DNA of 64,000 nucleotides, taken from contig JASXTE010000016.1 of assembly GCA_030280995.1 (NCBI GenBank), forward strand, positions 16,610,501 through 16,674,500, in the 5' to 3' direction. Position 1 is the stretch's first letter. Each line of letters starts with the position of its first letter. Source of the stretch: Hemileia vastatrix. Taxonomy: Eukaryota > Basidiomycota > Pucciniomycetes > Pucciniales > Zaghouaniaceae. A program made the position numbers and the translations under genes. Shown here piece by piece: positions 23,601 through 63,931 of this stretch. The notes under the pieces were generated by a model, which was given only the letters and a program-made list of their open reading frames with translations, did no database searches and had not been told where the DNA came from.

Positions 23601-23732
23601 CCCATGAGCAAAGGCCATAGGAAAAGATTTTATCAAGTTAATGATGGAATCTTTATCCTCACCAGAAAGTTGTTCTCCAAAAGAGGCATTGTCAATTTCA
23701 GACATAAGGGCATGCATTTCCTTTGTAGATCT
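20619..23732 (-). pseudogene. pol: Copy B Pol: RT, RNase H, integrase, chromodomain
   Basis: An unbroken 1,032-aa frame from Met at 23,717, downstream of a TGA. Reverse transcriptase: GDYRALN, MPFGPKNAPSVFQKVMD and catalytic YIDD at 220-223. RNase H acidic residues are in YTDAS (D369), QLECLAVVWALE (E414) and VTDCSA. Integrase has an H-H-C-C zinc site (AGHFDLDKT...CDSCQK) and a D672, D734, E770 triad with DX35E spacing, then a GPF/Y-like VGPFVVRRM and a C-terminal chromodomain (residues about 975-1,020, EYLLRFKNKSSEYDSW). All catalytic residues are present. It would be translated only as part of Gag-Pol, which the TGA blocks. Confidence 0.9.
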
Positions 23733-38583: not shown

Positions 38584-38615
38584 CTCCCTCATTCTAAAAA
38601 AACAATAAAAAAATG

Positions 38616-41600: not shown

Positions 41601-41765
41601 ATGAGCAAATTCCATAGGAAAAAACTTTATCAAGTTAATGATGGAATCTTTATCCTCACCAGAAAGTTGTTCTCCAAAAGAGGCGTTGTCAATTTCAGAC
41701 ATAAGGCCATGCATTTCATTTGTAGATCTTCCTTTATATTGAACTACAGAATTACATGTGTTCAA
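38616..41765 (-). pseudogene. Copy D Pol (decayed)
   Basis: Four main pieces: RT N-terminus (41,765-41,298), RT-RNase H (41,249-40,395, YIDD and YTDASFIGLGAAL intact), integrase zinc region (40,175-39,735, with AGH changed to AVN in DILAVNFDLEKT) and integrase core to chromodomain (39,554-38,616, with HHPQTDGLAEIMIQTLEDM and SEYDSWIPGKEISN). Single stops and small indels separate the pieces. The linker into RT has glycine where copy B has TGA. Confidence 0.85.
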
Positions 41766-43988: not shown

Positions 43989-44640
43989 CTACAAGAAACG
44001 GCACTTGAGAATCAATAGAGGGGCGTACCAGGGTTTGCTGGGTATGACCATATTGGGTTTTCTTCTTCTTTTGCCTCCTTGATAGGGGTGAGGAGGTGTG
44101 GGGTTGACCTGGTTGGGTCTTGACGGACCTGCCTGAGGTAACTGATGCTGGTTTTGAGACAGGTTGTCCCACTGAGTGTTTAACCAGTCCCACTGCCACT
44201 TGGACACTTCCACCTTCTCTTGGGACTGGGGAGCCAATTGTTTTTGATCCCTGGGGGGAAGAGGTTTCTTCTTCTCTTGAAGAAAGGTATCTATCTTTCT
44301 CACCTTTTCTTCCATAGCATCTACCCTTGCCTTTAGTCTCAAGTTTTCTGTCCTTAGCTCCTTTATGTGAGTTGACAGATTCTTTACCTGTTGGGGCAAT
44401 GGCATCTTTTTTATTCTGAAGCCTTTTGGAAGTTCTTCTGGTGGGTTTATCACAGGCTTCTGATCCTGAGTTGTGTCTACTAGGATTTCCACTTCTTCCA
44501 TCTCTACATCCTGTTTGGGGCAAGGATTTATTAATCTGAGGAATTCTTCTTGTTAAAGGAGAACTTACAGAAGTAGGCTCATCATAATCAATCAAGTCTA
44601 GTTCCTCTTCACGTGCAGCAGAACCACTTTGGTCAGTCAT
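43989..44640 (-). CDS. Copy D ORF1: spliced small coiled-coil protein
   Basis: Exon 1 is 44,640-44,569, the intron 44,568-44,511 (58 nt), exon 2 44,510-43,989; about 197 aa, uninterrupted. It has the coiled coil LSTHIKELRTENLRLKAR and continues through FLQEKKKPLPPRD, KWQWDWLNTQWDNL and PTPPHPYQGGKRRRK. With copy B it is one of two intact versions. It stays open although the overlapping Gag-Pol of copy D has many nonsense codons. No known family is recognised. Confidence 0.65.
44511..44568 (-). other. Intron in copy D (58 nt)
   Basis: TCT|GTAAGT, interior TTTAAC and TTAATAA as possible branch sites, CCAAACAG|GATG at the end. Phase 0. Confidence 0.7.
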
Positions 44641-45556
44641 TTTAAGATTTAACTGAAATGAAGAAAAGAGACAATAAGATGAATTAGTCTTTAATTTTAA
44701 TTTTTATTTAACAAAAATAAAATATAAATTAAAAAAATCTTTTTAGGATAAAAATCAACTAAATAAAATTAATTTATTAATTCAAAAATAATTTAAAACC
44801 AGGATTATAATATAATCAACTGAAGAGATAAATTAAAAAATTTTATTAAAAATTTTAATTAATTATTTTCAGGATTTAAATCAACTAATTTATTACCAGG
44901 ACTTAATGTCAACTGAAGTAATTAAATATGAATTTTTATTAATTAAAAAAAACTTTTATTGAACTGATCACTTAACTACCAGGACTTAATTTCAACTGAA
45001 GTAATTAAATATCAATTTTTATTAATTAAAAAAAAATTTATTGTCAGGACAATTTGTCAACTGGAACAAATAAAATTTAAATTAATCAGGACAAAATGTC
45101 AACTGAAAATTATAATAATTAATATTGAAATATAATTGTTTATTACTTCTGGGACTAAGAACACTATTGCTCTATTATTGTCAACCAGGAAAAAAAAATA
45201 TAATAATAAAATTAAATCCAAATTACCAGACACCTCCCCCTGTAAAATGAGCAAATTAATGCCACTTACAGAGTGCTGAGTAAAAGGAAATATGTAGCAA
45301 ATGAAGAGTGCAAAGTAACCCACAAATAGTAATATCAATAATTACCACAATATATATGACTTTTAGTCAGTATATGAACCTAATTTTTGGAGCGCGGTTC
45401 GATTCCCGTTTGCAGCAAAAATATTTTTTCACGTGATGTATGACGTTCATCGTTTTTGTCGCTCTCTCCTCCTTACAGGTACTCGAATGCCGATGGTCCC
45501 TTCGATGTACGCCTCAAATAATTTTGCGCCGTCAATACTTTGGAAAGGCTCCCAAT
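44641..45556 (-). other. Copy D 5' leader with hairpin array
   Basis: Short hairpin motifs at about 44,750-45,100 (clearest near 44,898, 44,980, 45,045 and 45,088). The long hairpin CTGG-TT-GAC ... GTC-CCAG is at about 45,149-45,190, with a G-rich block at 45,228-45,245 and the tRNA-like block GCGCGGTTCGATTCCCG at 45,392-45,417. The order is the same as in B and C. Confidence 0.65.
45392..45417 (+). other. tRNA T-arm-like block, copy D
   Basis: It contains the perfect GGTTCGATTCC box followed by CGTTTGCAGCA and an A run, 140 bp from the LTR edge, as in copy B. Confidence 0.55.
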
Positions 45557-47062: not shown

Positions 47063-47735
47063 TGTGGTACACATCTTGCAGTAATGCAGAAATGTTGCAG
47101 CTTGCAGCCAGCACAACAAAGGGGTTGTTAAGTAGGTTGGCTACATGAGTGCAACAAAGGTATGTGATAGCACAGAAAAGGTAGACTCTCCACACGCAGT
47201 TTTTCTTTGTGTATTATGGAATTATAAGCCACGGAAATAAAAATTTTAGGGTAAGTACATAATGGGCTAAAGGACAAGGAAATATGATATGTACTTGCAA
47301 AAAGTCATGGGCAGCGCTAGATGTATGATATGGACTTATGAGGCAGCAATAGAGGTGTCATGGAAATTTACGCTTAAGTTAGCAGAAATGCTTTCAGGAG
47401 AAGCTGTTCCTGCCCATGAAGATGAAAAATGTGTTAGAAAAATAAGTAGAAGTGCTAGAAAGACAAAAGTCTTTACAATTAGCACTCACAAAAAGGATAA
47501 GAAAGATAGGAATTGAGATAGGAAAGTCATTTTCTGAAGCGCAAAGGGTTTAACAATTAGTGGATACTTGTGTCACCAGCATGGGTCATTGCAATAGGTA
47601 TGAAAGGTGGTGCAGTACCTATTATTTAGTGAGGGATCTTAAGAAGTGTAGGTTTCAGGTGCTATTGGTGCCAAAACCCATGCTAATAAATGTACTTAGA
47701 TCTTTGAGATATTTAGATAACATTTGATATACTTG

Positions 47736-47740
47736 TATTA
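47736..47740. repeat. Target duplication TATTA, left
   Basis: TATTA precedes the transposon and recurs at 51,503-51,507. The uninterrupted 3' LTR has a single TATTA at the same site (CTTGTATTAGTGCTG, near 61,955). Confidence 0.75.
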
Positions 47741-47771
47741 GGGGGTGTCAGTTCTGGCAAATCCGCACTTA
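47741..47771 (+). repeat. Harbinger left terminal inverted repeat
   Basis: 31 bp starting GGGGGTGTCAGTTCTGGC, an exact inverted match to 51,472-51,502. It runs into AATTAAGTGCGGATTT, which forms an inner palindrome with the end of the repeat. Confidence 0.85.
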
Positions 47772-48110
47772 AATTAAGTGCGGATTTCAAACCAAATCAG
47801 CACTTACAAATCAGCACTTAAATTTTGCAAAAAAGTCACTTATTTCAAAAAAGGGTGTCAGTTATGACCTCAAATCAGCACTTTTTTCCCGTTTTTTTTC
47901 ACAACCACATTTTGGCCACAAAACATCCCTTCCTTTCTTACCCCATCCCTGTCACATGTGACACACTGACCTTCCTCGCTACCTACCCATCAATCCTCGG
48001 CACACACCCCTTCCTGACATTTTCAATATTTTGACCAGGCATGTTTACATTCTTTTTTACTTATTTCTTCTACTTTTTAATCTTTTTTCTTGTTATGTGC
48101 CAGTTTCATA

Positions 48111-48212
48111 ATGCCTCCCAGACATTCCAAATCTCAAAAGGTAACTCAAAAATCTGCTTCGTCACAAAAGTCTCCTCGTAAAGCAAGGATTACATATAAA
48201 AAAAATCAGTGA
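48111..48212 (+). CDS. Short Lys/Ser-rich frame, possible remnant of the second Harbinger gene
   Basis: A 33-codon frame MPPRHSKSQKVTQKSASSQK... rich in Ser, Lys and Arg, divergent from the transposase. Harbinger elements normally carry a second, Myb-like DNA-binding gene, and this is where its N-terminus would be. AAAAG|GTAACT inside it could be a splice donor, and TTTTTACAG 102 nt further on an acceptor. No Myb domain is visible, and the tandem array begins inside this frame. Confidence 0.3.
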   Translation: MPPRHSKSQKVTQKSASSQKSPRKARITYKKNQ

Positions 48213-49646
48213 CTTTTTCTATTACTTACAACTGTTTTTACAGAATTGAAAACTATGTTTCAGCTAATATTTTATGGAAGTGAGCTCTGTTCTTCGCCCG
48301 AAGAACAGAGTTCATCCTCCTATTTTCACACTCTGTTTGCACCAATCTCCATCCCTTTCAATTCTATAAACACATGCTTGTCTTCCCTCCCCATGCCTTT
48401 CGCTATCCTCCCAGCCCCATTGTATGCCATCCTCTTTTAAAGGTAACTCAAAAATCTGCTTCATCACAAAAGTCTCCTCGTAAAGCAAGGATTACATATA
48501 AAAAAAATCAGTGACTTTTTCTATTACTTACAACTGTTTTTACAGAATTGAAAACTATGTTTCAGCTAATATTTTATGGAAGTGAACTCTGTTCTTCGCC
48601 CGAAGAACAGAGTTCATCCTCCTATTTTCACACTCTGTTTGCACCAATCTCCATCCCTTTCAATTCTATCAACACATGCTTGTCTTCCCTCCCCATGCCT
48701 TTCGCTATCCTCCCAGCCCCATTGTATGCCATCCTCTTTTAAAGGTAACTCAAAAATCTGCTTCGTCACAAAAGTCTCCTCGTAAAGCAAGGATTACATA
48801 TAAAAAAAATCAGTGACTTTTTCTATTACTTACAACTGTTTTTACAGAATTGAAAACTATGTTTCAGCTAATATTTTATGGAAGTGAACTCTGTTCTTCG
48901 CCCGAAGAACAGAGTTCATCCTCCTATTTTCACACTCTGTTTGCACCAATCTCCATCCCTTTCAATTCTATCAACACATGCTTGTCTTCCCTCCCCATGC
49001 CTTTCGCTATCCTCCCAGCCCCATTGTATGCCATCCTCTTTTAAAGGTAACTCAAAAATCTGCTTCATCACAAAAGTCTCCTCGTAAAGCAAGGATTACA
49101 TATAAAAAAAATCAGTGACTTTTTCTATTACTTACAACTGTTTTTACAGAATTGAAAACTATGTTTCAGCTAATATTTTATGGAAGTGAACTCTGTTCTT
49201 CGCCCGAAGAACAGAGTTCATCCTCCTATTTTCACACTCTGTTTGCACCAATCTCCATCCCTTTCAATTCTATCAACACATGCTTGTCTTCCCTCCCCAT
49301 GCCTTTCGCTATCCTCCCAGCCCCATTGTATGCCATCCTCTTTTAAAGGTAACTCAAAAATCTGCTTCGTCACAAAAGTCTCCTCGTAAAGCAAGGATTA
49401 CATATAAAAAAAATCAGTGACTTTTTCTATTACTTACAACTGTTTTTACAGAATTGAAAACTATGTTTCAGCTAATATTTTATGGAAGTGAACTCTGTTC
49501 TTTGCCCGAAGAACAGAGTTCATCCTCCTATTTTCACACTCTGTTTGCACCAATCTCCATCCCTTTCAATTCTATCAACACATGCTTGTCTTCCCTCCCC
49601 ATGCCTTTCGCTATCCTCCCAGCCCCATTGTATGCCATCCTCTTTT
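48138..49646 (+). repeat. Tandem array, five units of 302 bp
   Basis: Five nearly identical units start with AGGTAACTCAAAAATCTGC; their internal ATG frames begin at 48,246, 48,548, 48,850, 49,152 and 49,454, exactly 302 bp apart. Each unit contains a perfect 15-bp inverted repeat with a two-base loop (GAACTCTGTTCTTCG, CC, and its complement), apart from one base changed in the first and one in the last unit. Units differ at only a few positions, so the amplification is recent. The 64-69 codon frames in each unit are by-products. Confidence 0.9.
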
Positions 49647-49935
49647 GATCCCCATTTCACCCCTCTCAACCTCTCCCAGACCCTTTTCTTCATTTAAAAT
49701 GCCTCGGAACCCTTAAACTTCCCTTCCAACTCTTTCCCAACCTTTGAGTGACTGAAAAAATATGCGTTTGCTGAAAATATGCGATTTCATGTTGAGTTGA
49801 TGAAAGAAAACACAGAGAGAAAAAAAAATAAGACTTTAACAGCAAATTCAAAAACCAAAAAAATATGCAAAAAAATTTACCATTCTCAGTGAATAATACA
49901 TGCAAATTGATAATTTGAAGAGAAAGAGAAAAAAA

Positions 49936-51195
49936 TTAAAATTGCGTTGAAAAATGTTGGAGTGTTATTGGAAGGATTTTCGCCCTTATACTAGTTGATT
50001 GAGAAATAGAAGTGTTGGATATAGTCGGAGGTGAATCAACTTGTTCATCTTCATACAGCTCTAACCATTGATCTTTGAGGTCAGCAAGTAGGTTATGAAG
50101 TATAGTGCAACACAGAATCCAGTTGATCACCGCCTCCATTTCAGATTTATTTCTAAGAGGACTTCTTAATTCCCTTAAACTAGAAAAACGGCCTTTCAAG
50201 ATTCCAATAGAATGTTCAATACGGACTCTTGACTTTGCCAAATGATTGTTGAATTTGGCATTTTGACTGTCTTCTGAAGCTGCTCCCCGAAAAGCAGGAA
50301 GTACATACTTTCCATTCACATAAGCAGAATCTGCAAGAAGATACTGATTTTCATCAAAGAATTTTTCAGGTTCATTTGAAATATGCATTCTTTGGAAGAC
50401 GTAGGAGTCATGACATGAGCCAGGATAGCCAGCGAAGAATGATATAAATTTTTTGTTTACGTCACATATAAGCTGAACGTTAATTGAATATCTATAAAGA
50501 AGATATATTTGTTTGTGTTAGTTTCAAGGAGGATGAAAGGAGTTAAAAATAATCTACCTCTTTTTACGGTCAAAGTGATTGTTTCCACCTTGACCAGGTT
50601 TCTGGCTCAAAGGAATAGTAGTACCATCAACAAAACCAATACATCCTGGAAAGCCCTCTGCTTGCATAACCTGAGATGATTCAAGTCGCTCTTCTTTTGT
50701 TGGCCAGGTGAGAAGTTGAGATTCCAAGGAGTTGATGGCAGTGATACATCGTTTGGTATAAGTGTTAACTGAACCATACCCTAAATCAAAGACATTTTCT
50801 AAACGTTTCAAAGCGGCTCCATTACCATTTGAACCCAAACGACATAGTGTGATGGCCAATTGAATTGAAGGATGTCGTTGTTCTTTTTGAGAATTATTGT
50901 GAAATATGGGATGATCCTGAATAAGCTCAAGCAATTTAAGGAAACATTCCTGAGAAGTCCTGAACAGCTGTCTAAAACTGGGTGTAGATAGGCTAAGAAG
51001 TGTTTGGATGGTGTACTTGGGGGTATGAAGTACTTGAGGCTTTCTGGGAAGAAGGTAACGTTTCCTGGCCATTTTTGATAAAACGACAAAATCTTCTTCT
51101 AGATCAGAATCGGAATCAGAGTCCAAGAGCAGTTCAAGCGCCATGAAAGTCTTTGCTTTATGTAATTTATCACGATTTGAAAGTGAGGAAGGCAT
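49936..51195 (-). CDS. HARBI1-like transposase (two exons, intact)
   Basis: Exon 1 is 51,195-50,558 (MPSSLSNRDKLHK...), the intron 50,557-50,492 (66 nt, donor GTAGAT, acceptor CTTTATAG), exon 2 50,491-49,936; 397 aa, typical for the family. The DDE nuclease triad is visible as D190 (GFVDGTTIPL), D267 (LLADSAYVNG) and E305 (VRIEHSIGILKGRF), with the family block GYPGSCHDS between. An N-terminal helical region (about 70-180) resembles the usual DNA-binding part. It would cut and paste the element. No inactivating change is seen. Confidence 0.9.
50492..50557 (-). other. Intron in the Harbinger transposase (66 nt)
   Basis: AGAG|GTAGAT, pyrimidine-rich end CTTCTTTATAG|ATATTC. Removing it joins FDRKKR to YSINVQLICD in frame, as in related transposases. 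Confidence 0.85.
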
Positions 51196-51471
51196 GACTC
51201 TTATATGATCTGATATGAAGATGTAAGTGATGTACGATGTTTTGAGTTATGAAGTGTTATGCTGCGGAGTGCTGCGTATGAATGGGATGATGCTGACAAA
51301 TCAGTGAAATGGGACTTGATGGTGAAATCAGCACTTTTGGTTGAGAAAGTGCGGATTTGAGTGAAATAAGTGACTTATTTCATTTTGAAATCCACCAGTA
51401 TTGGGGCTAGTGTGTTTTGGAAATCCGCACTTATTTAAGTGCGGATTTGGTCAAATTTAAGTGCGGATTTG

Positions 51472-51502
51472 TAAGTGCGGATTTGCCAGAACTGACACCC
51501 CC
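51472..51502 (-). repeat. Harbinger right terminal inverted repeat
   Basis: 31 bp ending CAGAACTGACACCCCC, the inverted match of the left end. It is preceded by three more copies of AAGTGCGGATTTG. Confidence 0.85.
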
Positions 51503-51507
51503 TATTA
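51503..51507. repeat. Target duplication TATTA, right
   Basis: Right copy of TATTA; the LTR sequence (GTGCTGAACTTGTG) resumes immediately after. Confidence 0.75.
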
Positions 51508-52036
51508 GTGCTGAACTTGTGTAGGAAAACCTGTAGGCAAGGAAACATAGGAAAGAGGCACTGAACATACAAATGTATATAAGTAATCACTTGTAAATAG
51601 AAGAGGTGTGTGGGTGCATGTAAGTTAGTAATTAATAGATAAAAAGATATATTTTATTATTTGTACATACTGGGTGTGCATACCAGAAGTAGCGCTGTAG
51701 AGTTATTTTATTGCTACAGTAATGATAGTATTATATAGAGTGCTTCAAGAGGGAGTGACTGAGAATACTAGTGCTTACCGAGAATAGATATAGCCACTAG
51801 TTTGATTGCTAATATTAGAATATATCTATATTTTATTCCTTTTATTATTATTAACCGTCATTCTACTTCCACCACCACACCCAGAATAAATAACCCGACT
51901 TAAAATACGTGCTTTCACTGTCTTTAAATATTAGAGTGGCAGGCACTTCTTTTTAAAGCTATATTTAGGAAGGAGAACAACCCCATCTTGGAATTGTGCC
52001 TAAAACTTAGTATTAGAGAACTATTTCTTGTCTACA

Positions 52037-52286
52037 ATTGTTGTCCCAACAGTGGTAGCAATATTGTAAGTACAGTTATTATCTTCTTGTTGTTTTTTAG
52101 GGTTTTTTCAAAAGGGGTGTAATCAAGCTGGCGCTTCAGTGGAATAGTCATAGGGTCTACAACAAGTGTATTAAGAGCCATTATCAGAGGATAGAGAAGG
52201 GCTGTATTAAAAAAGTTATATAGTCAATATAAGATTTTAGTGCTTATGTGTTTTTGTTTATAATTATAGTAGTTAAAAAAGGTAGA
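52037..52286 (+). other. Element H leader
   Basis: A 250-bp leader after the 5' LTR. It opens ATTGTTGTCCCAACAGTGGT, which may include the primer-binding site (TGGTAGCAA), but no tRNA match was made. No hairpin motif of the chromovirus type is present. Confidence 0.5.
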
Positions 52287-53570
52287 ATGGATCCTACAGC
52301 TACTACATCTTAAGTCACTCAGGAGAGGGTAACGTTTCCCAATTCTATGGCACCAATACTGCCTTGGTTTTTGACAATTATTAGGTGTAAAGATGAAAGC
52401 TTTCAATTTACTGGGATTAACACTCAAAAGTTTTTGAGGAGGTTTGAACAAGCAGCGGAAGTACATGGGGCATTGGATTATGATATGGTGCATCAAGTGT
52501 TATTTTTTGTTGCAAATGAATGTAAAGACAATCTAGAAGAGCTGGATGGTCACGAGAAATGTGACTGGATGGCGTTAAAAGCAAAAATGTTAAAAATATG
52601 ACCTAAACTTACAGAAGAAACTAGGTACACAATTAAAGACTTGGATGTCTTAGTGAATAAGGAAAAGGCTAGAGGGGGTATCAGAGACCCTAAAAATTTT
52701 AAAAAATTGTGACAAGAATTTGTTCAGGTTTTGTATTATTTGGCCAGTAATGAGGACTTTAGTGATACTAGTGCCTCATTACCTTGGTTCTGTGAGGCGC
52801 TAGCACCTGAGGTCAAAGATTGGGCAAAAAGGTGCCTTGATAATGAGGTGAAACTAGCTAGAAAGAGGAATGGAGACTATAAGTATCCAGGGTTGGAGGA
52901 AGTGGAAATGGCTTTAGAAGCAGAAATGAAGCTGTGTTGGGTAGAGGGCTAAGCCTCTAGGGTTTCTTTAGAGGATGAAGAGATGATAGAGGTTTAGCCT
53001 AGCACTAGATCACCTTCTTTGGCAACAACTCCAAAAGTTAAAGTGATGTCACAGGATTCAAATTCTGTAATGGCAAGAATTGAAGTTTTGGAGAAGAGCT
53101 TGAGAAAAGCGGCTAAACCCAAGCCCCAATTTACTCCTCAACCATTGCCTTTTTATTCAATGGTATGTTATTACTGTTGTAAAGAAGGTCATACTAGGAT
53201 GAGGTGTAACATGCTTCAAAAGGATAAAGAAGATAAAGTTGTTTTTGAAGAAGGTACAGCGCTGATGCTAGAGGATAGAAAAAAACTTTTCATGGATAAG
53301 GATCAAGGGATGAGAACAAATTTCATTGATCATATTAATAAAAAGTCTATGGAGGGAAATTCAAGCAAGGAAAAGGACACAAAATCAATTAATTTTGCAG
53401 TGACTTGCATGGTTTTGGATTTTAAAGTAAAAAAAGGAGCGGTTGCAGCACCACTTACTGCAGCGCACTTGGAAATGTTTGCAGCAAAGCACAAGAAAAT
53501 GGCCCCACCAACTATTAGTAGGCCAAGAAGAGCTGGCGCCAAGTATGCAAATCTGGAAGATATTGAGTAA
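52287..53570 (+). pseudogene. Element H Gag (nonsense codons)
   Basis: One reading frame from ATG 52,287 (MDPTATTS) through capsid-like pieces (FQFTGINTQKFLRRFEQAAE; SNEDFSDTSASLPWFCEALA) to a standard zinc knuckle CYYCCKEGHTRMRC (CX2CX4HX4C) near 53,169. It is interrupted by in-frame stops at about 52,311, 52,599, 52,710, 52,950 and 52,997. Each could be a single C-to-T change of CAA, CAG or CGA. The architecture (C-terminal CCHC) is that of fungal Ty3/gypsy Gag. Confidence 0.75.
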
Positions 53571-54491
53571 TTAGCTTATATTACAAGGGAGAATACACCT
53601 GCGCCTATGTAGAATATTGAAATGGATGATGTGGAATCTGTTGGGTATTGTATGGATCATCAGTCAGGAGAGAAACCTGCAAAGATGGAGGACCCAGAGG
53701 CAGTTCAGAAAAGAGCGGTACCAGCAGAGGTAATTCCAAGAGCAAGGTGTAATACTCCAAAGAACCCACCTGGAAGAGCAAAAGCTGGTGCAAAGGCAAC
53801 TCAACCTAAGTGGAGGATTCAGCGCCCAGTTCACGCTGACTTTCCTAAGGCAGCTGAGGATTTAGTTGAACAGTGTTTAAAAACTACAGTTTTGGTTCCA
53901 TTAAAGGTACTGACAGCAGTAGCACCAGACATAGCAAATAGAATTGTGGATAAGTGCAGGAAGAGAAGGGTTGCTGATTGCACTGAGTTTGATGTAGGGG
54001 AAAAGTCATTTCAGCCAGTCATTTGATTTCCTAGGGCCCCACATTATGCAGGTCCCTTAAGGTATTTGAAGATTACTGTAAATGGTAAGCTGATTAGAGT
54101 GTAAGTGGATACAGGTTCAAAAATCAATGTAGTTTCAGTGGATGATGCTGTGGAGCTAGGTCTTCCTGTAAAAGATGGTGAGGGCAGTGTCACAGGAAAT
54201 GGCAGAGGTAGGTTGCCTGTTATAGGTGTAGCAGAGTATGTATGAACTAGAGTTGCAGGAGCAACAAGAGATATTCATTTTTATGTTCCAATGGGTGTAG
54301 TTAAACCAGTTTTATGTATGCCATTTTTAATGAATTATTCTGCAACTATTGATTATTGTTTGAATAAAACTATTGGAATTAGGATTATGGGTTATGATGG
54401 TATTCTGGTGACAGAAGTCTTAGTAATGCCTAAAGATGGTGGCTGGTATACTAAGTACTCTGGAGCTGTGAGGTTGGAGAAAGAAAGATAG
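53571..54491 (+). pseudogene. Element H linker and protease (nonsense codons)
   Basis: It continues the Gag frame. The retropepsin signature VDTGSKINVVSVDDAVELG is at about 54,108-54,165, followed by IGVAEYV and MGVVKPVLCMPFLMNYS. Stops interrupt it near 53,568, 53,610, 54,024, 54,102 and 54,243. The DTG triad is intact. Confidence 0.75.
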
Positions 54492-54538
54492 ATTTATGAG
54501 GAAGTCTCAGATGATGAAATTGGGCGACCACTAGGAAG

Positions 54539-55911
54539 GTGCCAACATTTTCATTAGGGACTGGCATTTTAGGTGTTACTATCTCTCAAGATGAGAGGAA
54601 CCCAGATAGTGACCAGTCAGTCCAACAAGAGGGGATATGTAAAGCAGTACTTCATAGTTGTCTTGATTATACTACAGTAGAATTTATTATACCTAGGCTT
54701 TTTAATTTCTTTGATTATGGATTTTGTTATACTTCTATTAAGAAGAAAAGAAAAAAACAGGATGTAGGTAAAACCTGTAGTTATATCAGGAAGGTTTTGA
54801 TTTTAAGTAATGAAGGAAGCTGCAGGCGCTGTTGTGCATCAAAGTATAAACCAGTAGCGTTCAAGGTTAAACCAGTTAATGTTCCAATTCCAGATTTGAA
54901 TCCTCTTTTTCAGAGGCTTGCGCTGTTTAGGAATCCTTATGATACTCCTTTAACATAGTTTCCGCCGGAATTTATGCCTACTAATAGAATCACAATGGAA
55001 AGGCTTCAGATGGTTAATTTTGGACCAGAAGATTGGTTATCTCAGGAAGAAAAGAAGTTATTGTTACATGTTATGGTTCTTAGGGAAAAGGCTATTGCAT
55101 TTTCAGAAGAGGAAAGATGTTTGTTAAAAAACTCTTATGGTACACCTTATATTGTTCCAGTAATACCTCATGTGCCGTGGCAAAAGAAGGCTTTTCCAAC
55201 ACCAGTGGCAATAAGGGAAGAATATACAGAGCTAATAAGGGAAATATTAAGGTCTGGCTTGTACAAACAGTCAATTTCTAGTTACTCAAGTCCAGTATTT
55301 TGTGTTGTCAAGCATAATGGTAAGTTAAGGGTTGTTCATGACTTGAGAGAAATAAACAAGGTTACAGTTAAAGATGCAGGGTTACCACCAATGCCAGAGG
55401 AATTTGTGGATTCTTTTGCAGGACGTGCATGATATGGATTAGGGGATATAATGGGAGGAGACAATGAGTGGGAGTTGGATATGTTGTTGAGACCCATTAC
55501 TACATATGAAACTCCATTGAAAAGCTTTAGGTTGACAAGTTTACCACAGGTGCTATGAATTCAGTGGCAGAGTATCAGGCACATAAGATGTGGATATTAC
55601 AGGATGATATCCCAGAGCATGTGGGAATCTTCATTTATGATTTTGGTATAAAAGGACTGGCCAGTGATTATGATGGGGAGGCTCTAGAGGAGAACCCATA
55701 CATTAGGATGTTTATATGGGAATATTCTGTTACTCTTGAAAGGGTACTATTTAGGATAGAAGAGGCTGGATTGATGGTCTCAGGGACAAAATTTTTGTGT
55801 TGCATACCAGCACTAGATATTTTTGGTCATGTTGTATGTATGAAGGGAAGAATTATTTCAGAAAAAAAAGGTGCTCACATGGCCAAGACCAAGAAATACT
55901 ATGGAAGTTAG
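54539..55911 (+). pseudogene. Element H reverse transcriptase (catalytic Asp lost)
   Basis: Fungal Ty3/gypsy RT: YTELIREILRSGLYKQSISS, FCVVKHNGKLRVVHDLREIN, VKDAGLPPMPEEFVDSFAGR, then after frameshifts the palm end. The active-site box that should read FIDD reads FIYDFGIKG (near 55,630-55,655): the first Asp is Tyr. The segment CIPALDIFGHVVCMKGRI is the normal continuation. A frameshift lies at about 54,490-54,539 and others near 55,430-55,555. Confidence 0.8.
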
Positions 55912-56496
55912 GGGTTTTTTGGGTATTTGTACCTATGTGAGGATGTTCATTTGTGATTTTGCCTTGTTTTCTTCACCATTAAGGCGCTTAACAAGAAAAG
56001 ATGTTGTATGGAATTAGACAGAGGAATGTGAAGAATCATTTGAGTTGTTGAAAATAATTTTAGGAAAAGATATACTTTTGAAAAGTCTGGAGTATGAACC
56101 AGGCACTAGAAAAATTAGTCTAGAAGTGGATTCTAGTGTGTCTGCAGTAGGCACAGTTTTAATGCATGAGGATGAGGAAGGTAATGATAGACCTTTACTA
56201 AAGTGGAGTCTAGATACTCTCAATCTAAGTTGGAGTGATTTGGTGTAGCAAAAACTCTTAAGAAGCTACAATGGATGCTTTGTGGGCAACATTTTGAGTT
56301 TCAGGTTGATGCACTGTTGCTGGTGCAAATGATTAGTAGCCCCAGTTTACCAGATGCGCCCATGACTAGGTGGGTAGCGCAGATTAATTTGTTTTCTTTT
56401 AATTTAGTACACAAGCCAGGGAAGTCTTTCACTATTCCAGATTCATTATCTAGGAGGCCATTGTGTGAAGAAGATTCTGAGGTGGAAGAGTTTTAA
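55912..56496 (+). pseudogene. Element H RNase H-like region
   Basis: Pieces ISLEVDSSVSAVGTVLMHED (56,045-56,248) and HFEFQVDALLLVQMISSPS with LVHKPGKSFTIPDSLSRRP (56,275-56,496) match the RNase H domain and the link to integrase of fungal gypsy elements. A stop separates them. Confidence 0.7.
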
Positions 56497-58101
56497 GAAG
56501 ACAAGAGGTGGATAAACAGCATAGACTATTGTTATCAAAGATTTAGGAATAAGGACATCTGTAAAGATGTCAAACTAAATGATTATGATAGGAAGGACAT
56601 CTGGGACAACAGTAAACTAGCAGCATGTAATTTCCACAAAGACATTAGATTAAATATGTGCAAGAAGGATGTTTGTAGCAAGGATAATCTGCAACTGGAT
56701 TTAGGGAACACTGACGTCAATGTTTCAACAAGGAGTGCACTAAACAAGACAGCGGAAGAATCAGATGATTAAGATGACTCAAGGAAAAGTCAAGATAGTA
56801 ATGCACCTCCAGGAGATGGGGAGTATTCTGAAGATGATGCATCTACTGATGGGGAAGCAAAGCTGTTAAGTTTATATCTGGAAGGTAGTAGTTGACCAGA
56901 TTTTTGTGATGAAAAGTTTTGGAGCAACATCAAGAAGCGCGCTAACATTTATTTTATTAAAGATGGAAATCTATGGAGGAATCAATCTTCTTTTCCTCAG
57001 TTAGTAACTTGAACTATGGAAAGGAGGGAAAAAATTCTTAGAGAGTTACATGAGAATTTAGGACATAGGGGTCAAGATGAGACATACTGTAAAGTCAGGG
57101 AAAGATTCTGGTGGCCTAATATGAGAGCAGAGGTTGAGAATTGGGTTCAATATCTCCCAGAATTCCAGCGTAGGAGTTACAGAAAGCCCAAATAAAAAGG
57201 GAAAGAAACAGGAGAAGATACTATTTTTGGAAGAATTAGTTTAGATGTGGCTCATATTAAAGAAGGATGCTTTGAGTACTTGGTAGTAGCCAGGGATGAT
57301 CTGTCAGGATGGGTTGAAGCAGCACCATTGGTAAGCCTTAAGGTGAGTAATGTAGCTGAATTTTTAAAAAAGGAATGGGTATATAGATATGGAGTAATGA
57401 AAATGGTAACTGTGGATGGTGGCGCTGAATTTTCTGGTAAATTTCAAGAAGTTGTCAAAGGGATTGGCACTTAAATTTGAGTTGCAACACCATATTACCC
57501 AGAGGAGGAAGGAATGATTGAGAGAGGGCATCAAGTAATAAAGGATGTGCTGGTTAATTTATGTGGAAATAATGGTGCAAAGTGGAAGAACTACTTGCCA
57601 TTAGTTTTGTTTGCAGATAGGATTTTAGTTAAAAGGATGGCTGCTTTTTCACCATATGAACTTATGTTTGGTCTAAGGGTGGTATTACCTATTGATCTAG
57701 AAGCTGGATCTTTTCTAAGATGCAATTGGGATTAAGTGCGCTTGACTGATGATTTAATTCTAGTGAGGGTAGCACAACTTGAAAGAAAGGATGAGTTTGT
57801 GGAGAAGGCATATGAAAGAATGATGCAAATCTGGGACAAATCAGTTAAATATTGGGATGAGAATTTAGCGCATAGATTAAGAAAGCCATTGAACCTAGGA
57901 GATTTGGTTTTGGTCTATAATAGAAGTCTATAAATCCAATGAGGAAAAAAAATTTTTGACAGATGGAATGGTCCTTATAGGATCAGGAAACAAATAACTG
58001 GAGGGTCTTACTTACTGGAGAAATTACATGGTACTGAATGGAAGCGACATGTAGCAGCCAATCAGATCAAAATATTCTACCCAAGAGGGATATCAGTAAC
58101 A
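56497..58101 (+). pseudogene. Element H integrase
   Basis: Zinc-binding region HENLGHRGQDETYCKVRERF with WWPNMRAEV (near 57,050-57,130; the Cys pair is damaged). Core pieces: DVAHIKEGCFEYLVVARDDL (first Asp), VTVDGGAEFSGKF (second Asp) and EEGMIERGHQVIKDVL (Glu). The C-terminal piece, DRWNGPYRIRKQITGGSYLL, has the GPY/F-like motif. It ends at TAA near 58,101. Stops and shifts break it into at least five frames. No chromodomain is seen. Confidence 0.75.
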
Positions 58102-58127
58102 TAAGAATCACCTCCAGAATGAGGTAA

Positions 58128-58364
58128 AACTACCAAATTTATGTTTTAAAACTCCATGATGAGTATGAAACTATCAGCAGTATTTTTTTAGGAGGCAATG
58201 ACACAACTGTGACGGATAGGGTGCTAGCAATGGCAAAGCAACTATGGCTGAACAAGTGGTTGGCATTAGAGCTTGATCAAAGTTTTGTGGATTTAAGATG
58301 CTTTGTCATTAGAGGGGATATGAGGCAATTGGTTAACTGGATAGAGGAACAGCTTTCTGGGTAA
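58128..58364 (+). CDS. Unknown sense frame after pol in element H
   Basis: An open stretch without initial ATG, NYQIYVLKLHDEYETI..., containing VTDRVLAMAKQLWLNKWLAL and FVIRGDMRQLVNWIEEQL, ending in TAA. The composition looks protein-like (amphipathic helices, conserved-looking Trp residues). It follows the end of Pol by about 25 bp, so it may be a C-terminal extension or a small downstream ORF. Not recognised. Confidence 0.4.
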   Translation, partial: NYQIYVLKLHDEYETISSIFLGGNDTTVTDRVLAMAKQLWLNKWLALELDQSFVDLRCFVIRGDMRQLVNWIEEQLSG

Positions 58365-58730
58365 ATTAGAAGGCTACAGTATGCTTAGCAGAAGGTGGGC
58401 AGCTTAGTTGAAGAAGATTGGCAGATGGAGAACCCAAATTCAGGCAACCATTTTCATAAATAATCTCAAAATAAAAAGTTAAACTATGGGGTTGAAAATT
58501 GTTTAAAGATAGTAGAGGGAGTTTTAGCAAGCGCTCTCTAGAAAAAATTGTATGAGGAAAGAAGGCAAGTGTGTCACAAAGCGCTATGCACGTTACTCAT
58601 GATTTTACAAATAATTACAAGTTTATGATAATTACAAATGATAATGAAAGTCATAGTTTAATGGGAACTATGTACAAGTGTTAAAGTAATGGCACTAATC
58701 AGAAAGGAAAGTGAAGAGGAAAAGTTAAGA
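58365..58730. other. Spacer between sense pol and antisense gene Y
   Basis: About 370 bp in which sense-strand coding gives way to antisense coding. The sense strand keeps a few short open pieces (VGSLVEEDWQ). The 3' end and polyadenylation region of antisense gene Y probably lie here. No motif could be fixed. Confidence 0.4.
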
Positions 58731-59533
58731 CTAATTGGAGTCTTCTTCAAAACTACTGGGGAATCCTTTCCACTCTTCTGGCATAATAAAGTTGTTGGGA
58801 TCTGCAGGAAAACCGGGAATAGAAGTGGAACTAATTTCATTCATTAACTGACCCATCATTTCTATATGATTATAGCAAGCATTCAATTCTTCATCTGAGA
58901 ACGCAGGAGAAAAATTATAGGAGGATGACATAGTGTCATAAATAAGACAAAGGCAGAAGAAGATTTGCATTGAATGAACAAAGGGAAGGGGTATGGGAAC
59001 CCATCCTAAGGAAATGGATTTGTTAAAATCTTAGGATAGAATAACATGAGGAATAATTAAATAAAAGAAATATTTTATGATGAACTTACTTTCTAGTAGA
59101 TTCAAAGGCCACACAGAAGGTGAAAGCACTCTTACAGTATTGGGTACAGCTGTAGAGCAAGATTGAATGGTGAATTCTTGTTCAGAGGAAGAAGGTGATT
59201 CAGCCTTAGGTTGAATAGAGATTTCTTGTCAAGAGTGCGCAGTAAGAGAAGCACTATCAATAGGTAAGGTTTCATTAGATGGTAAAGTAGCACTAATAGG
59301 TCTAGCTAGAACAGTAGGAGTGCTAGAAGTATCTACGGATGGGAACTGGATGTAGCTATTAGGAGAACTATTTCATTCATAAGAAAAGGTAAAAGTCTTA
59401 TGAAATTTAAAGCATTTATCACAAGTGGGTGTAAAAGCAACACAACCACAAGGCTTAGAGAAAAAACATTTAAATTACCGTGGCAGCAAAAGCTACAAGC
59501 TTCTTTTCTAGGTATAGTACAATATATGGTCAT
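58731..59533 (-). pseudogene. Antisense gene Y in element H: Cys-rich N-terminus, two exons
   Basis: Start ATG 59,533: MTIYCTIPRKEACSFCCHGN, then after a one-base frame break CFFSKPCGCVAFTP, TCDKCFKFHKTF, i.e. a CX2CC, CXC, CX2CX3H pattern that looks zinc-binding. A Ser/Thr/Pro-rich middle follows (two nonsense codons), then an intron 59,089-59,030 (60 nt, GTAAGT...CCTAAG). Exon 2 ends with an acidic C-terminus (FSDEELNACYNHIEMMGQL, EEWKGFPSSFEEDSN). Splicing keeps the frame. The layout (small metal-binding domain, loose linker, acidic tail) suggests a regulator, but no family is recognised. Confidence 0.55.
59030..59089 (-). other. Intron in antisense gene Y (60 nt)
   Basis: GAAA|GTAAGTTCATC ... 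TATCCTAAG|ATTTTAAC; phase 1 on both sides gives one continuous frame. Confidence 0.6.
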
Positions 59534-59592
59534 GTCTAATTAGAACTTGTGAAGAATAATGGAATGGATAGGGTAGAAGAGCATATTACAGG

Positions 59593-59602
59593 CCTATTTA
59601 TA
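59593..59602 (-). promoter_or_regulatory. TATA box of antisense gene Y
   Basis: The minus strand reads TATAAATAGG, 60 bp upstream of the ATG at 59,533. It faces away from the element's own 3' LTR and is in non-coding DNA. Confidence 0.55.
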
Positions 59603-59619
59603 ATATTCAGGTGCTGTAA

Positions 59620-60053
59620 GTATGAAAAGAAAAGACAAGCTCTGAATAGTATCCAAGTGGGGGAGGCTAATAAGCAGAAGAATATAGTGTATCAAGATTT
59701 ATGAGAAAAGGAAGGTAGTGCTAAGGAGTGTAAGATCTTGGGAAGATCTGAGTTTACTTCAAGAATAATAGGTTGAGGAGGATATGGCACTAGCAATTTA
59801 AAATATGTGTGAAAACTTTTATTTTTTCAAGCTTGTTTCAGAAGGAGTCAAGAAAATAAGATTTTCAGAAGAAATCCTATTATTTTTAAGAAATTATGGG
59901 ATCCTTTCACTTTCACCAAATAATCATGGGCAATGGTTGGCAACGTTTTTTGGGAAATAATAATTTTTTTTTACAAGAAAAGATAATGATACACTAGTTA
60001 CATAGTGGTACAACAAGAAATAATTTAAAGTCAAAAAGAATTTTTTTTTTTTG
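59620..60053. other. Spacer between antisense genes X and Y
   Basis: AT-rich, with A/T runs and several stops in all frames. It probably holds the 3' end of gene X (a possible last exon begins at 60,053 with a CA-rich, slipped A run) and upstream sequence of gene Y. Confidence 0.4.
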
Positions 60054-60590
60054 CTGAAGAAAGAAAGGAAAATTAATATTTAAATAATGAATAAGGAAAA
60101 GAGATTGAAACTTACTTTAACGTCTATCAAGGAAGGCATACTCCCAGTAATTATAAATGTTATTATAAGTCAAATTCAGAGTTTTGACTAGGGTGACTTG
60201 ATTTTGGACATCCCACTTGTCAAGGGCTAGTGTATTTTCATAGTAAGTGTATACTAAATTGAAAGCAGCATTGACTCAATTGACAGTGCGGTATTAAGGG
60301 GCTGCAACCACTTGATTAAGGACTTGCTAATCTTGAGGGAAAGGAAGGTGAATTTGAGGGGTATCTTCCTTGAAAGTATGATTTGAAGTTGGAGGAGCAG
60401 AGAACCAAACGTCAGGGGTGAAGGGTGGAGGAGTAGCCTCTTTCTCAGGACAGGTAACTGTGTCTTCTGTGACCGGGGAGAAACAAGCACCAGGCATTAT
60501 AGCCCAGAAGAGATCTTCTTTGAGACCCAGGATAGTAAAGTTGACACAAGAAGTTGAAGGCGTCACAGCATAAGGAGTGTTAGGGACATC

Positions 60591-60665
60591 CTAAGTAGAA
60601 GAAGAAGAAAAATATTGTTGTCAGCAAGGAAAATTTAAAGGGAATGAAAAAGAAGAGTGACTTAC
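60591..60665 (-). other. Intron 2 of antisense gene X (75 nt)
   Basis: ATACT|GTAAGTCACTC, long pyrimidine tract TTCTTCTTCTTCTACTTAG|GATG. Phase 0. Confidence 0.6.
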
Positions 60666-60887
60666 AGTATGAATTGACTCTTCAGAGAAGAGTGGACGTA
60701 GCATTTTATTTGACTGGTGCTTGAAGTCAGCAAGAAATGATTTTGTCATGCTCTCTTAGGAGCAGGGCGCTTAATGGCCAGCTTACTCATAAGATTTGAG
60801 GTCAAAGTATTGGGATCAACAATAGGAGTGGCAGGGGGACCATTTAGACTGCATCTTTTCTTGCAACTTCTTTCAAAAGTTGCATGA

Positions 60888-60957
60888 CTAGAGAAAAGAA
60901 AAAGAGGAGATCAGCACCAAAGTTTCAAAAGGAAGGTAACAGAGGAAAATAGCTTAC
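60888..60957 (-). other. Intron 1 of antisense gene X (70 nt)
   Basis: TTTACT|GTAAGC, end CTCTTTTTCTTTTCTCTAG|TCATGC. Strong splice signals on the strand opposite to pol. Confidence 0.6.
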
Positions 60958-61245
60958 AGTAAAAAAGCTGTTACCACAAAGGGTTTTCAAAAAGCGGCAC
61001 AGGGTAATGCTGTTATCAATACAGTGTTGGCAATGCTTGGCACCAGTGAGGACAGCTTTGACTTTAGGGGTGGCAGGAGTGGCAGCTTTCTGCGTGCCAA
61101 TGAGTTGATGTATGGCATTGACAATTTCTTGATTGGCATCCATAATAATAGAGTGAATTAAAGTTAGAAGAGAAGGAGGAAAAAGTAAGAAGATAAAGAA
61201 AGAGAAGAAGAAGGAATGACAAAGCAGCGCAAGATATGCACCGGG

Positions 61246-61252
61246 TTTTATA
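61246..61252 (-). promoter_or_regulatory. TATA box of antisense gene X
   Basis: The minus strand reads CACTATAAAACCCGG, about 104 bp upstream of ATG 61,143 and just inside the 3' LTR boundary (61,285), so it belongs to the internal region and not to the LTR. Confidence 0.5.
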
Positions 61253-61284
61253 GTGCCTGGGGACAGTCACAAGTAGAAGGAGAC

Positions 61285-62492
61285 TGTGGTACACATCTAG
61301 CAGTAACGCAGAAATGTTGCAGCTCACAGCAAGAGCAAAAAAAGGGGTTGTCAAGTAGAATTTCTAGATGAGCGCAACAAAGGTATGTGATAGCGTAGAA
61401 AAGGTAGACTCTCCACGCACAGTTTTTTTTGTTTATTATGGAACTATTAGCCAGGGAAAGAAAAAGTTTAGGGTATGTACATAATGGGCTAGAGTAAAAG
61501 GAAATATGGTATGTAGTTGCGAAACGTCATGGGCAGCGCTAGATGTATGATATGGACTTACAAGGAGGCAATAGAGGTGGCATGGAAATTTACGCTTAAG
61601 TTAGCAGTGATGCTTTTGGGAGAAGCTGGGCCTGCCCATGAAGATTGAAAATATGTTAGAAAAATAAGTAGAATTTCTAGAAAGACAAAAGGATTTACAA
61701 TTAGCACTCAAGAAAAGGATAAGAAAGATAGAACTTGAGATAGGAAAGTCATTTTCTGAAGCGCAAAGGGTTTAACAATTAGTGGATACTTGTGTCACCA
61801 GCATGGGTCATTGAAATAGGTATGAAAGGTGGTGCAGTACCTATTATTTAGTGAGGGATCTTAAAAAGTGTAGGTTTCAGGTGCTATTGGTGCCAAAACC
61901 CATGCTAATAAATGTACTTAGACCTTTGAGATATTTAGATAACATTTGATATACTTGTATTAGTGCTGAACTTGTGTAGGAAAACCTGTAGGCAAGGAAA
62001 CATAGGAAAGAGGCACTGAACATACAAATGTATATAAGTAATCACTTGTAAACAGAAGAGGTTTGTGGGTGCATGTAAGTTAGTAATTAATAGATAAAAA
62101 GACATATTTTATTTTTTGTACATATTGGGTGTGCATACAAGAAGTAGTGCTGTAGAGTTATTCTATTGCTACAGTAAGGATAGTATTAGATAGAGCGCTT
62201 CAAGAGGGAGTGCCTGAGAATACTAGTGCTTACTGAGAATAGATCTAGCCAACAGTTTTATTGCTTATATTTGAATATATATATCTTTTATTCCTTTTAT
62301 TATTATTAACCATCATTCTACTTCCACCTCCACACCCAGAATAAATAACCAGACTTACAATACGTGCTTTCACTTTCTTTAAATATTAGAGTGGCAGGAG
62401 CCTCTTTTTAAAGTTATATTTTTGGAAGGAGAAGTAACCCATCTTGGAATTGTGTCTATAGCTTAGTATTATAGAACTCTTTCTTGTCTACA
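61285..62492 (+). mobile_element. Element H 3' LTR
   Basis: 1,208 bp, TGTGGTACACATC...TCTTGTCTACA, preceded by purine-rich AAGTAGAAGGAGAC (polypurine tract). It provides the empty-site sequence for the Harbinger insertion (near 61,955). Flanks of the whole element H (ATCAC on the left, CACCA or CCACT on the right) give at most a 3-bp duplication (CAC). Confidence 0.85.
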
Positions 62493-62841
62493 CCACTCCA
62501 TCATCTACATGAATTCACAAGATTCCCTTGTTGATTTGATCTTGAAGTATGTACATGGAACTGTCATAGTAGCTTGGAATATAATTCATTGACTGAAATT
62601 TAGACCCTAAGTGCTTCCACCAACACCTTGCAGCCTGCTTTGTACCATACAAAGCCTTTGTAAGTTTGAATACGTTGAGGGGTATATGTAATTTTAGAGG
62701 AACATAAAAGGAAAAGTTGGACATATTGCCTGTGACATGATGAGTAGCACCACTATCTAAGACTGGGAGGGGTCCATTGTCCAAAATTGAAAGTTTTTCA
62801 ATATGTATCTTGGATGGTTCTTTTGAATTGTCAATTTCCAA
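62493..62841 (-). pseudogene. Copia J: protease fused to reverse transcriptase, internally deleted
   Basis: The frame starts in the Gag-PR linker, has the protease motif VLDSGATHHVTGNMSNF, and some 20 residues later is already in RT (VFKLTKALYGTKQAARCWWK, a hallmark copia RT block). The whole integrase and the first part of RT are missing, so a large in-frame internal deletion has occurred. RT continues to the VDD region at 62,493-62,520, where element H interrupts it; the rest is at 46,856-47,062. Confidence 0.8.
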
Positions 62842-63931
62842 TAGGCATGTTTTTATATTTTTGATATCTTTGTTGTAATTAGGTCTGTATTACTTTGCTT
62901 TACAATCATCTGGTTGTTGTTGTTGTCATGGAAATGGAGGTGGATAAGGAAAATTTGGGAATATAAGATATGGATTGTTTGGAGTGAGTGCAAGGTAAAA
63001 AGGCATTGGGTAATGTGCAGTATACAAAGTTGTTTGTTGAGGGTAAGATGAAATTGTTTGTTTTTGTGAAGATTGAAACTTGGCTGCAAAATATCCAGGT
63101 CAGCTACACCAATAACAGATTATTTGATTTATTGTATGTTTCACTGCATCAGCTTCAATTGAGTCTGGCTCTTTATTTGTTTGAAATGTAGTTTTATTGA
63201 TAGTCATAAATTTCTCTTTCCCATTTTTTGTCTTCAAAGATTCTTGTCTTTGCAAGTCAATGATTACTCTTGAGATTTCTTTTGATGATGGTACATCACT
63301 GACTCAATATAGTGTACTAATCTGATTCATAATATCATCTTCAAGTCTGGAATTGACCTTTGCTTGATTTTGAAGCATCAAGCCTATAATGTTGTCCACA
63401 GTTGTTTTGAGTCCTGAATCCCTCATAGTCCTAAACATTTTGTACATAGCTTGTGTAAATTCCACACCTGAAGGAAAATCAGCTAATTTCAGAGATAAAG
63501 TTTCTTGCCATAGATTTAGAGGATGAATTTGGGTGCTCTGATTAAAATGTGTAACCAAAAAGGCCAATAAGTTGAATGCTGTTGGATAATTTCCATTACA
63601 AATAAGTTCTTTGACAGAGTCTTCAACACATTCAATGAGTATTTCTCAAACTAGATAGTCTTTGTGAAGATTGATTTGCCATTTTCTGTTGTCAGCATAG
63701 TCTTCATCTCTAATTATGTTTCCAAGTAATGGTCAAATCTTCATTATCCACATCTGAAAGTTGTTGCCATTTGAATTTAATTTTGGAGTTGCATCAATCC
63801 ATGATTTAGCTTTTTGTAAGTTTAGCAAAAGCATAGTCCTTGTCCCATCCAGTTTCTGTGTATGTCAAGATCCTATGCGGTTCATGACTTTCATTTTCAT
63901 CTGCCGTGGGTTTGGCTGGTGGAGTTGGCAT
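62842..63931 (-). pseudogene. Copia J Gag (decayed)
   Basis: From an ATG at 63,931 (MPTPPAKPTADENES) the copia Gag can be followed in shifting frames: SWIDATPKLNSNG, FQMWIMKI, then a clean piece at 63,567-63,304 (FLVTHFNQSTQIHPLNLWQ, LKLADFPSG, LEDDIMNQIS). A damaged zinc knuckle CYWC...PGYFAAKF lies at about 63,115-63,070 (His and last Cys replaced). Strand and order match the protease-RT piece. Confidence 0.65.

Follow-up and report, generated by a model that had tools for sequence, protein, structure and literature searches.

We analyzed a 64,000-nucleotide stretch of the Hemileia vastatrix genome (contig JASXTE010000016.1, positions 16,610,501 to 16,674,500; hereafter the window), which contains a decayed Ty3/gypsy retrotransposon that we call element H. 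Between its integrase region and its 3′ long terminal repeat (LTR), the minus strand of H carries two spliced genes, which we refer to together as the cassette. Both of their proteins are under purifying selection, as judged from other copies in the same assembly. We hold with moderate confidence that the two genes encode putative regulators of the element itself, transcribed antisense to gag-pol and each from its own promoter.

The antisense genes and selection on their proteins

A sequence-only reading of the window had placed two antisense gene-like units between pol and the 3′ LTR of H, and they lie where it put them. Its three splice donors (60,957, 60,665, and 59,089) and two of its acceptors (60,888 and 60,591) are correct. 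The TATA boxes that it gave at 61,246 and 59,593 exist, but these positions are a few bases off, the TATAAA motifs starting at 61,252 and 59,602. For the gene 2 junction 59,089/59,030 the donor stands, while the acceptor at 59,030 has a rival at 59,007-59,006; the two candidates are about equally kept (19/22 and 19/23 rows, respectively). The layout is given below; rows are those of an alignment of H with 26 other copies, and signal counts are out of those rows, H among them, that have sequence at the site.

61247..61252, minus strand: TATA box of gene 1 (TATAAA in 17/21 rows)
60958..61143, minus strand: gene 1 exon 1, ATG at 61,143 (ATG in 23/25 rows; dN/dS 0.454)
60888..60957, minus strand: gene 1 intron 1, interrupting the Cys cluster (GT in 20/25 rows, AG in 22/24)
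60666..60887, minus strand: gene 1 exon 2, with the second half of the Cys cluster, frame-broken in H (from translations of copies)
60591..60665, minus strand: gene 1 intron 2 (GT in 16/27 rows, 9 reading AT; AG in 24/27)
60117..60590, minus strand: gene 1 exon 3, stop codon at 60,119 (dN/dS 0.375; stop in 25/27 rows)
60054..60115, minus strand: further intron directly past the gene 1 stop (GT in 22/26 rows, AG in 22/26)
59733..59749, no strand: palindrome with 7-bp arms, a candidate operator, in the noncoding stretch upstream of gene 2 (conserved)
59597..59602, minus strand: TATA box of gene 2 (TATAAA in 22/26 rows)
59090..59533, minus strand: gene 2 exon 1, ATG at 59,533, Cys/His-rich N terminus, frame-broken in H (ATG in 24/26 rows; dN/dS 0.637 over 59,466-59,091)
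59006..59089, minus strand: gene 2 intron (GT in 21/24 rows; AG at 59,007 in 19/23, at 59,031 in 19/22)
58731..59005, minus strand: gene 2 exon 2, starting at 59,005, or at 59,029 with the alternative acceptor; stop codon 58,733-58,731 (dN/dS 0.501 over 59,008-58,737; stop in 20/21 rows)

The intron at 60,115-60,054 probably belongs to the 3′ untranslated region of gene 1. Gene 1 exon 2 has a private frame break in H, most copies reading another frame from its first base; this exon was excluded from the test based on the ratio of nonsynonymous to synonymous change (dN/dS).

The copies came from a search of the assembly (747.6 Mb, 791 contigs) with cassette DNA (61,300-59,500), which gave at least 41 matches including H when 40 of 719 first-look candidates were scored; the non-H matches listed have 73-92% identity. 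We sampled 26 of the 40 other matches, 24 of them nearly full-length and 2 partial, for a total of 27 aligned rows with H. Exon lengths are nearly constant across rows; the introns and gene 1 exon 2 vary. The predicted excess of synonymous change is present: median pairwise dN/dS is 0.375-0.637 in the claimed frames versus 0.849-1.148 in shifted frames of the tested exons, although the 10-90% ranges in the claimed frames extend up to 1.17. By exon, the medians are 0.454 (300 pairs) and 0.375 (351 pairs) for gene 1 exons 1 and 3, and 0.637 (291 pairs) and 0.501 (231 pairs) for gene 2 exons 1 and 2.

States shared by at least two rows were taken as mostly change during activity of the lineage, and private changes as mostly postinsertion decay. 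With columns of fewer than 12 rows excluded, shared states stood at 0.685/0.525/0.904 for codon positions 1/2/3 in gene 1 exons 1 and 3 (P 0.0002) and at 0.535/0.574/0.677 in gene 2 (P 0.023), and private changes showed no third-position excess. Introns 1 and 2 have 0.83-0.84 shared states per site, like third positions. We also compared two groups of seven rows each, A and B, which were set by identity to H rather than by a tree and include 14 of the 16 integrase-aligned rows. The ratio of nonsynonymous to synonymous differences (pN/pS) between the groups was lowest in integrase (0.33), followed by gene 1 (0.45) and gene 2 (0.56); comparisons within the groups gave higher values (0.66-0.85). 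Antisense splice borders, also proposed from sequence, are mostly conserved. Together, the copies, dN/dS, and splice-border conservation support the earlier proposal of a lineage with accessory genes of its own, oriented toward pol.

H alone also carries a coding signal. Over 485 codons, the claimed antisense frames contain 6 stops; the two remaining minus frames contain 24 and 47, and the plus frames over the same exons contain 18, 29, and 52. A chain score that uses stops only is modest evidence, being matched by 4/150 shuffles at a mild setting and by 26/150 at a strict one. By contrast with shuffle means of 10-13, the best chain by period-3 composition reached 49-51 per 500 codons, a score attained by 0/300 shuffles at two settings and by 3/300 at a third. 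The claimed exons score 95.9, but they were chosen, not optimized by the chain rule. A leave-one-out period-3 model favored the claimed frame in 5/5 exons by at least 9.0 log units, with gene 1 exon 2 scoring slightly negative in its own frame. Period-3 strength is at least as high in 22 of 98 window stretches, those listed being, by position, for the most part coding regions of transposons or the strands opposite to them. Period-3 composition is blind to strand; the strand of the antisense genes is given by the stop counts, 6 in 485 codons versus 18, 29, and 52 in plus frames. The plus-frame counts also argue against a sense env-like gene in this region.

GTAAGT/C donors are frequent on the antisense strand, with 5 in 2.52 kb versus a window mean of 0.62 per kb, and 4 of the 5 stand at, or directly beyond, the ends of coding stretches. 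Pyrimidine-rich acceptors, which had been offered as evidence for genes, are present, but pyrimidine tracts on the minus strand are weak evidence by themselves because the plus strand of H is purine-rich throughout (0.56-0.60 in all four parts measured, the LTR, gag-pol, and antisense region among them).

The cassette in other copies and in distant elements

LTR sequence flanks the outer side of the cassette in 24/26 copies, and in 23 of these it extends to the very start of the repeat; the only copies without it are the two partial matches. Integrase lies on the inner side in 16/26 copies within the fetched stretch. The coding region thus runs opposite to gag-pol between pol and the 3′ LTR, the position of the antisense additional open reading frames (ORFs) called aORF-3R.

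Since the cassette served as the query for these copies, the frequency of its absence cannot be read from them, and integrase DNA was therefore used as an independent query, with 40 of 3,813 first-look candidates scored. Six distant elements were taken in this way (five at 83-84% identity, one at 89%), chosen as not among the listed cassette-DNA matches. All six carry the cassette, a small sample against 3,813 first-look candidates; the antisense frames expected in other copies of H are thus present in 26/26 found via the cassette and in 6/6 found via integrase. In each of the six, the exons follow the same minus-strand order: exons 2 and 1 of gene 2, then exons 3 and 1 of gene 1. These comparisons were made in translation against the exons of three copies, each exon match having an E value of 0.01 or better.

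The four exons tested in distant elements have 22-60% amino acid identity. Gene 2 is at 40-60% in exon 1 and 30-53% in exon 2; gene 1 exon 3 is at 22-28% over ∼150 residues in five elements and gives a short match only in the sixth. Donors are present for intron 1 in 6/6 and for intron 2 in 5/6, and TATAAA stands 46 bases ahead of gene 2 in 5/6.

Synonymous divergence (pS) over the integrase tail is 0.35 between the distant elements and group A, based on ∼30 sites per pair; between groups B and A it is 0.25 over the same tail and 0.34 over the whole integrase piece. Cassette DNA of the distant elements is alignable in patches only, even though their integrase tail is little further away than that of group B, and steady divergence hardly fits this pattern. 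Subfamilies are much less alike in the cassette than in integrase, and this suggests that the cassette may move between pol backbones, each subfamily having its own version, with the proviso that the distant integrase piece is short. H integrase DNA (57,000-58,100) gave 3,813 first-look candidates versus 719 for cassette DNA; these are not element counts, and they hint that much larger related subfamilies may exist in the assembly.

Zinc-cluster-like proteins and their possible role

The N terminus of gene 2 reads, in better-kept copies, C-x2-C-x6-C, 14 residues, C-x2-C-x6-C. Gene 1 has the same layout but with x7 in the first half, and its cluster is split by intron 1. In H, private frame breaks blur this layout. 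The encoded proteins combine a basic stretch and a variable tail with the Zn(2)Cys(6)-like cluster. In better-kept copies they resemble the GAL4-type Zn(2)Cys(6) domain (PF00172) in their two C-x2-C-x6-C half clusters, in the basic residues of one half, and in a borderline profile match; they differ from it in a 14-residue linker, in reversed halves, and in being encoded by a retroelement. The Pfam Zn_clus profile scored 21.0 bits with gene 2 of copy L038 (gathering cutoff 21) and, below that cutoff, 18.8 bits with gene 1 of L039 and 14.7 bits with gene 1 of L036. In a search of solved structures, the top two matches were GAL4 (E 0.069) and LAC9 (E 0.43), which are not significant alone.

BLASTP found no match between the gene 1 and gene 2 proteins of H. 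When profiles of the two clusters were compared (10 and 14 pieces, after removal of 7 and 10 with stops), they aligned in register with a P value of 0.005 and a probability of 6.7%; shared ancestry of the two genes is thus no more than a lead. A control search with the H reverse transcriptase found rust relatives, so the protein database covers the lineage, and the products of the antisense genes may have diverged too far, or be split by introns, to be found there. Scans of viral contigs with the same reverse transcriptase found no relative.

The noncoding DNA upstream of gene 2 (about 59,625-59,940) is among the best-conserved parts of the cassette, with 0.39-0.47 shared states per site, as compared with 0.83-0.84 in introns and 0.40 in the cassette end beside the LTR. 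The palindrome at 59,733-59,749 within it has at most 1 mismatch in 22/26 copies, and a relaxed form (2-3 mismatches) lies ∼190 bases ahead of gene 2 in 6/6 distant elements. At up to 3 mismatches the window holds 6 matches versus 9.7 in shuffles, so only the exact palindrome match is meaningful by itself. If it is an operator, this candidate would serve gene 2. Alignment folds at the palindrome have energies of −4 to −5 kcal/mol on either strand (z −3 to −11 versus 25 column shuffles).

The interpretation that we favor is as follows. Each antisense gene would be transcribed from its own internal promoter, toward pol, and then spliced. The introns would persist through transposition since the template is the sense genomic RNA, on which antisense introns cannot be spliced. 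Selection would keep splice borders only if an antisense mRNA is spliced, and the introns therefore argue for such an mRNA; by the same logic, their retention may be a record of a spliced antisense mRNA that is not the transposition template. The proteins are probably regulators, given the borderline zinc-cluster match and the conserved promoter-like DNA: they could act in the nucleus by binding the DNA of promoters that the element itself carries, the palindrome ahead of gene 2 being one potential site, and the outcome could be an autoregulatory switch or a form of copy number control.

Several results weigh against this interpretation. The zinc-cluster match is borderline and came from three of six N-terminal pieces, with the remaining three giving none; two of four further pieces matched at 11.2 and 10.0 bits, far under the cutoff, and the antisense proteins of H itself gave no Zn_clus match. 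A Zn(2)Cys(6) domain has six Cys in the pattern C-x2-C-x6-C, linker, C-x2-C-x6-8-C, with a linker of about 5-12 residues and its basic half first; here the linker, at 14 residues, is longer, and the halves are reversed, the first aligning to the second half of the profile and vice versa. Among 18 equal-length copies, Cys occupies the first and second Cys positions of gene 2 in just 9 and 8, respectively, with mostly Phe in the others, as against 13-16 for the remaining positions. Third-position excess is not significant for gene 2 exon 1 alone (P 0.21) and is marginal for gene 1 exon 1 alone (P 0.053). No alignment row is free of stops and length breaks in the exons other than gene 1 exon 2; hence, no working gene was seen. 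The decayed spliced antisense proteins of H had no homologue among 5.8 billion proteins (gene 1, E 0.001; gene 2, E 1). Finally, the LTRs of H hold no second good copy of the palindrome, the best being a 3-mismatch match, so nothing ties the antisense proteins to the LTR promoter.

The same selection and conservation evidence applies if the proteins are real but do another job, such as helping the particle or preintegration complex, nuclear import, countering of host silencing, or effects on host genes. The borderline zinc-cluster match leaves room for this, as does the strong divergence of gene 1 between subfamilies (22-28% over ∼150 residues in five elements), which is also expected in conflict with a host. 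Against it, the nearest described domain is the DNA-binding domain of fungal transcription factors, and the cassette contains conserved promoter-like DNA; we regard another job as possible, if rather unlikely. Nor do we see much probability in the antisense RNA being the functional product, acting through double-stranded RNA, silencing, or self-limitation with the proteins secondary. Noncoding antisense transcription of LTR elements is known in other organisms, according to the available passages of PMC7264820, and the noncoding DNA between the genes is among the best-conserved parts. That account is already weakened by dN/dS, and it does not explain amino acid constraint and frames kept at 22-60% identity where intergenic DNA is hardly alignable.

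Antisense position and spliceosomal introns resemble those of ordinary host genes, and a DNA transposon did insert into the 5′ LTR of H, as one might expect if host genes had been captured, or had inserted, recently. We consider this highly improbable: an LTR at the outer edge in 24/26 copies and the same module in 6/6 elements of a diverged subfamily refute recent capture. Ancient capture of host genes is possible. Chance open frames on a pyrimidine-rich strand are hardly credible at all. They would fit the purine-rich plus strand of H and the weakness of the stops-only test, but they run counter to the period-3 test and the stop counts, and both dN/dS and the conservation of the proteins in distant elements refute them.

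Within our preferred interpretation of the proteins as regulators of H, a further scheme can be proposed, as speculation that we would not expect to hold. Each subfamily might have its own pair of zinc-cluster factors recognizing its own promoter DNA, with the cassette coevolving and being exchanged between pol backbones, as a heritable self/nonself switch for activity and copy number.

Antisense ORFs between pol and the 3′ LTR are already known from plant elements and from the fungal element Boty; what the cassette adds is a pair of zinc-cluster-like genes with introns, in a rust-type lineage. In the accessible portions of PMC7264820 and PMC11963269, aORF-3R is described in plant Ty3/gypsy elements (maize Grande gene23, rice RIRE2, and Silene Retand). 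The cassette is like these in place, orientation, and retention in many copies, and unlike them in its rust-type fungal host, its two separate genes, and its spliceosomal introns. Grande gene23 has its own promoter and encodes a nuclear protein (PMC7264820, in part). Plant Retand elements have antisense ORFs with a TRP28 domain, probably DNA-binding, in 97% of clusters, as opposed to the zinc-cluster-like N terminus in H, and introns are not mentioned for these ORFs in the passages of PMC11963269 that were available. Boty of Botrytis and Sclerotinia, likewise a Ty3/gypsy element of fungi, has its antisense ORF in the same interval, from pol to the 3′ LTR (PMC7264820, in part). Its host is an ascomycete, however, and it is likened to the H cassette by description only. 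The antisense gene HBZ of human T-cell leukemia virus (HTLV) is spliced, and its host and protein are unrelated to those of the cassette; its promoter lies within the LTR, whereas the TATA boxes of the cassette lie in the internal region. What HBZ and other HTLV-type antisense genes share with the cassette is an antisense regulator gene near the 3′ LTR (PMC7264820 and PMC11963269, excerpts).

We found no report of antisense zinc-cluster genes in rust retroelements in the literature, mainly that outside subscription journals, and the word "antisense" is absent from the main texts of two fungal surveys by term look-up (PMC3248453 and PMC3411680, seen in part). Given this and the plant and Boty precedents, the H cassette is new only as a variant of antisense ORFs. 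A review states that the functions of antisense ORFs in LTR elements are not known and calls for attention to antisense and spliced transcripts (PMC7264820, available portion). Because the cassette offers two genes with introns and TATA boxes of their own, a DNA-binding-like domain, and a candidate target palindrome, one can now test directly whether a transcriptional regulator of an LTR element is encoded by the element itself. If high-copy elements do carry their own brake or accelerator, this would bear on the growth of such large fungal genomes.

Element H and its surroundings

The main parts of H outside the cassette are the following.

47063..62492, plus strand: element H, including the nested transposon at 47,742-51,502 (LTR-LTR match, translations)
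47063..47741, plus strand: 5′ LTR, piece 1 (91% identity to 61,283-61,963)
51503..52036, plus strand: 5′ LTR, piece 2, beyond the nested transposon (92.5% identity to 61,958-62,492)
52290..58104, plus strand: sense gag-pol, with stops and frame changes (three-frame translation; the reverse transcriptase piece matches rust proteins)
61285..62492, plus strand: 3′ LTR (matches both 5′ LTR pieces)

Self-comparison of the window gives an LTR length of ∼1.21 kb, 47,063-47,741 plus 51,503-52,036 corresponding to 61,285-62,492, and this corrects the 3′ LTR boundary of the sequence-only reading to a start at ∼61,285. Alignment of the two LTRs over 1,211 sites shows 95 differences and 5 gapped positions. 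The differences comprise 40 transitions and 55 transversions, gaps being few, and the C-to-T excess expected of repeat-induced point mutation was not seen between the LTRs. No clean target-site duplication was found by eye at the LTR ends. The H copy is broken by stops and frame breaks in gag-pol, where 24 stops were counted in 1,597 codons, and in both antisense genes.

The reverse transcriptase piece had eight protein matches, five of them named; the best match, at 70%, is unnamed. The named matches are four from Austropuccinia psidii (58-63%), which a database look-up classes in Pucciniales, and one from Puccinia coronata (57%), Puccinia also being a member of Pucciniales. The reverse transcriptase of H is thus closest to rust-fungus proteins, as befits a Ty3/gypsy element of Pucciniales.

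The transposon nested in the 5′ LTR of H (47,742-51,502) is of PIF/Harbinger type (DDE_Tnp_4, E 4.5e-26). It has TATTA on either side, and the 3′ LTR of H represents the empty site. Within it, at 48,137-49,646, a 302-bp unit occurs five times, with the units 99% alike.

Upstream of H, the minus strand of positions 5,289-46,332 harbors several related Ty3/gypsy elements, two of which (20,471-27,012 and 38,468-45,043) are 92% alike. The elements retain long open frames for gag and pol (1,037 and 971 amino acids) and show, by eye only, a chromodomain-like end. Remnants resembling Ty1/copia pol lie on the minus strand at 62,515-62,889, where RVT_2 (26.6 bits) and Pol_BBD both matched under the cutoff, and at 597-1,793, as read by eye from the translation.

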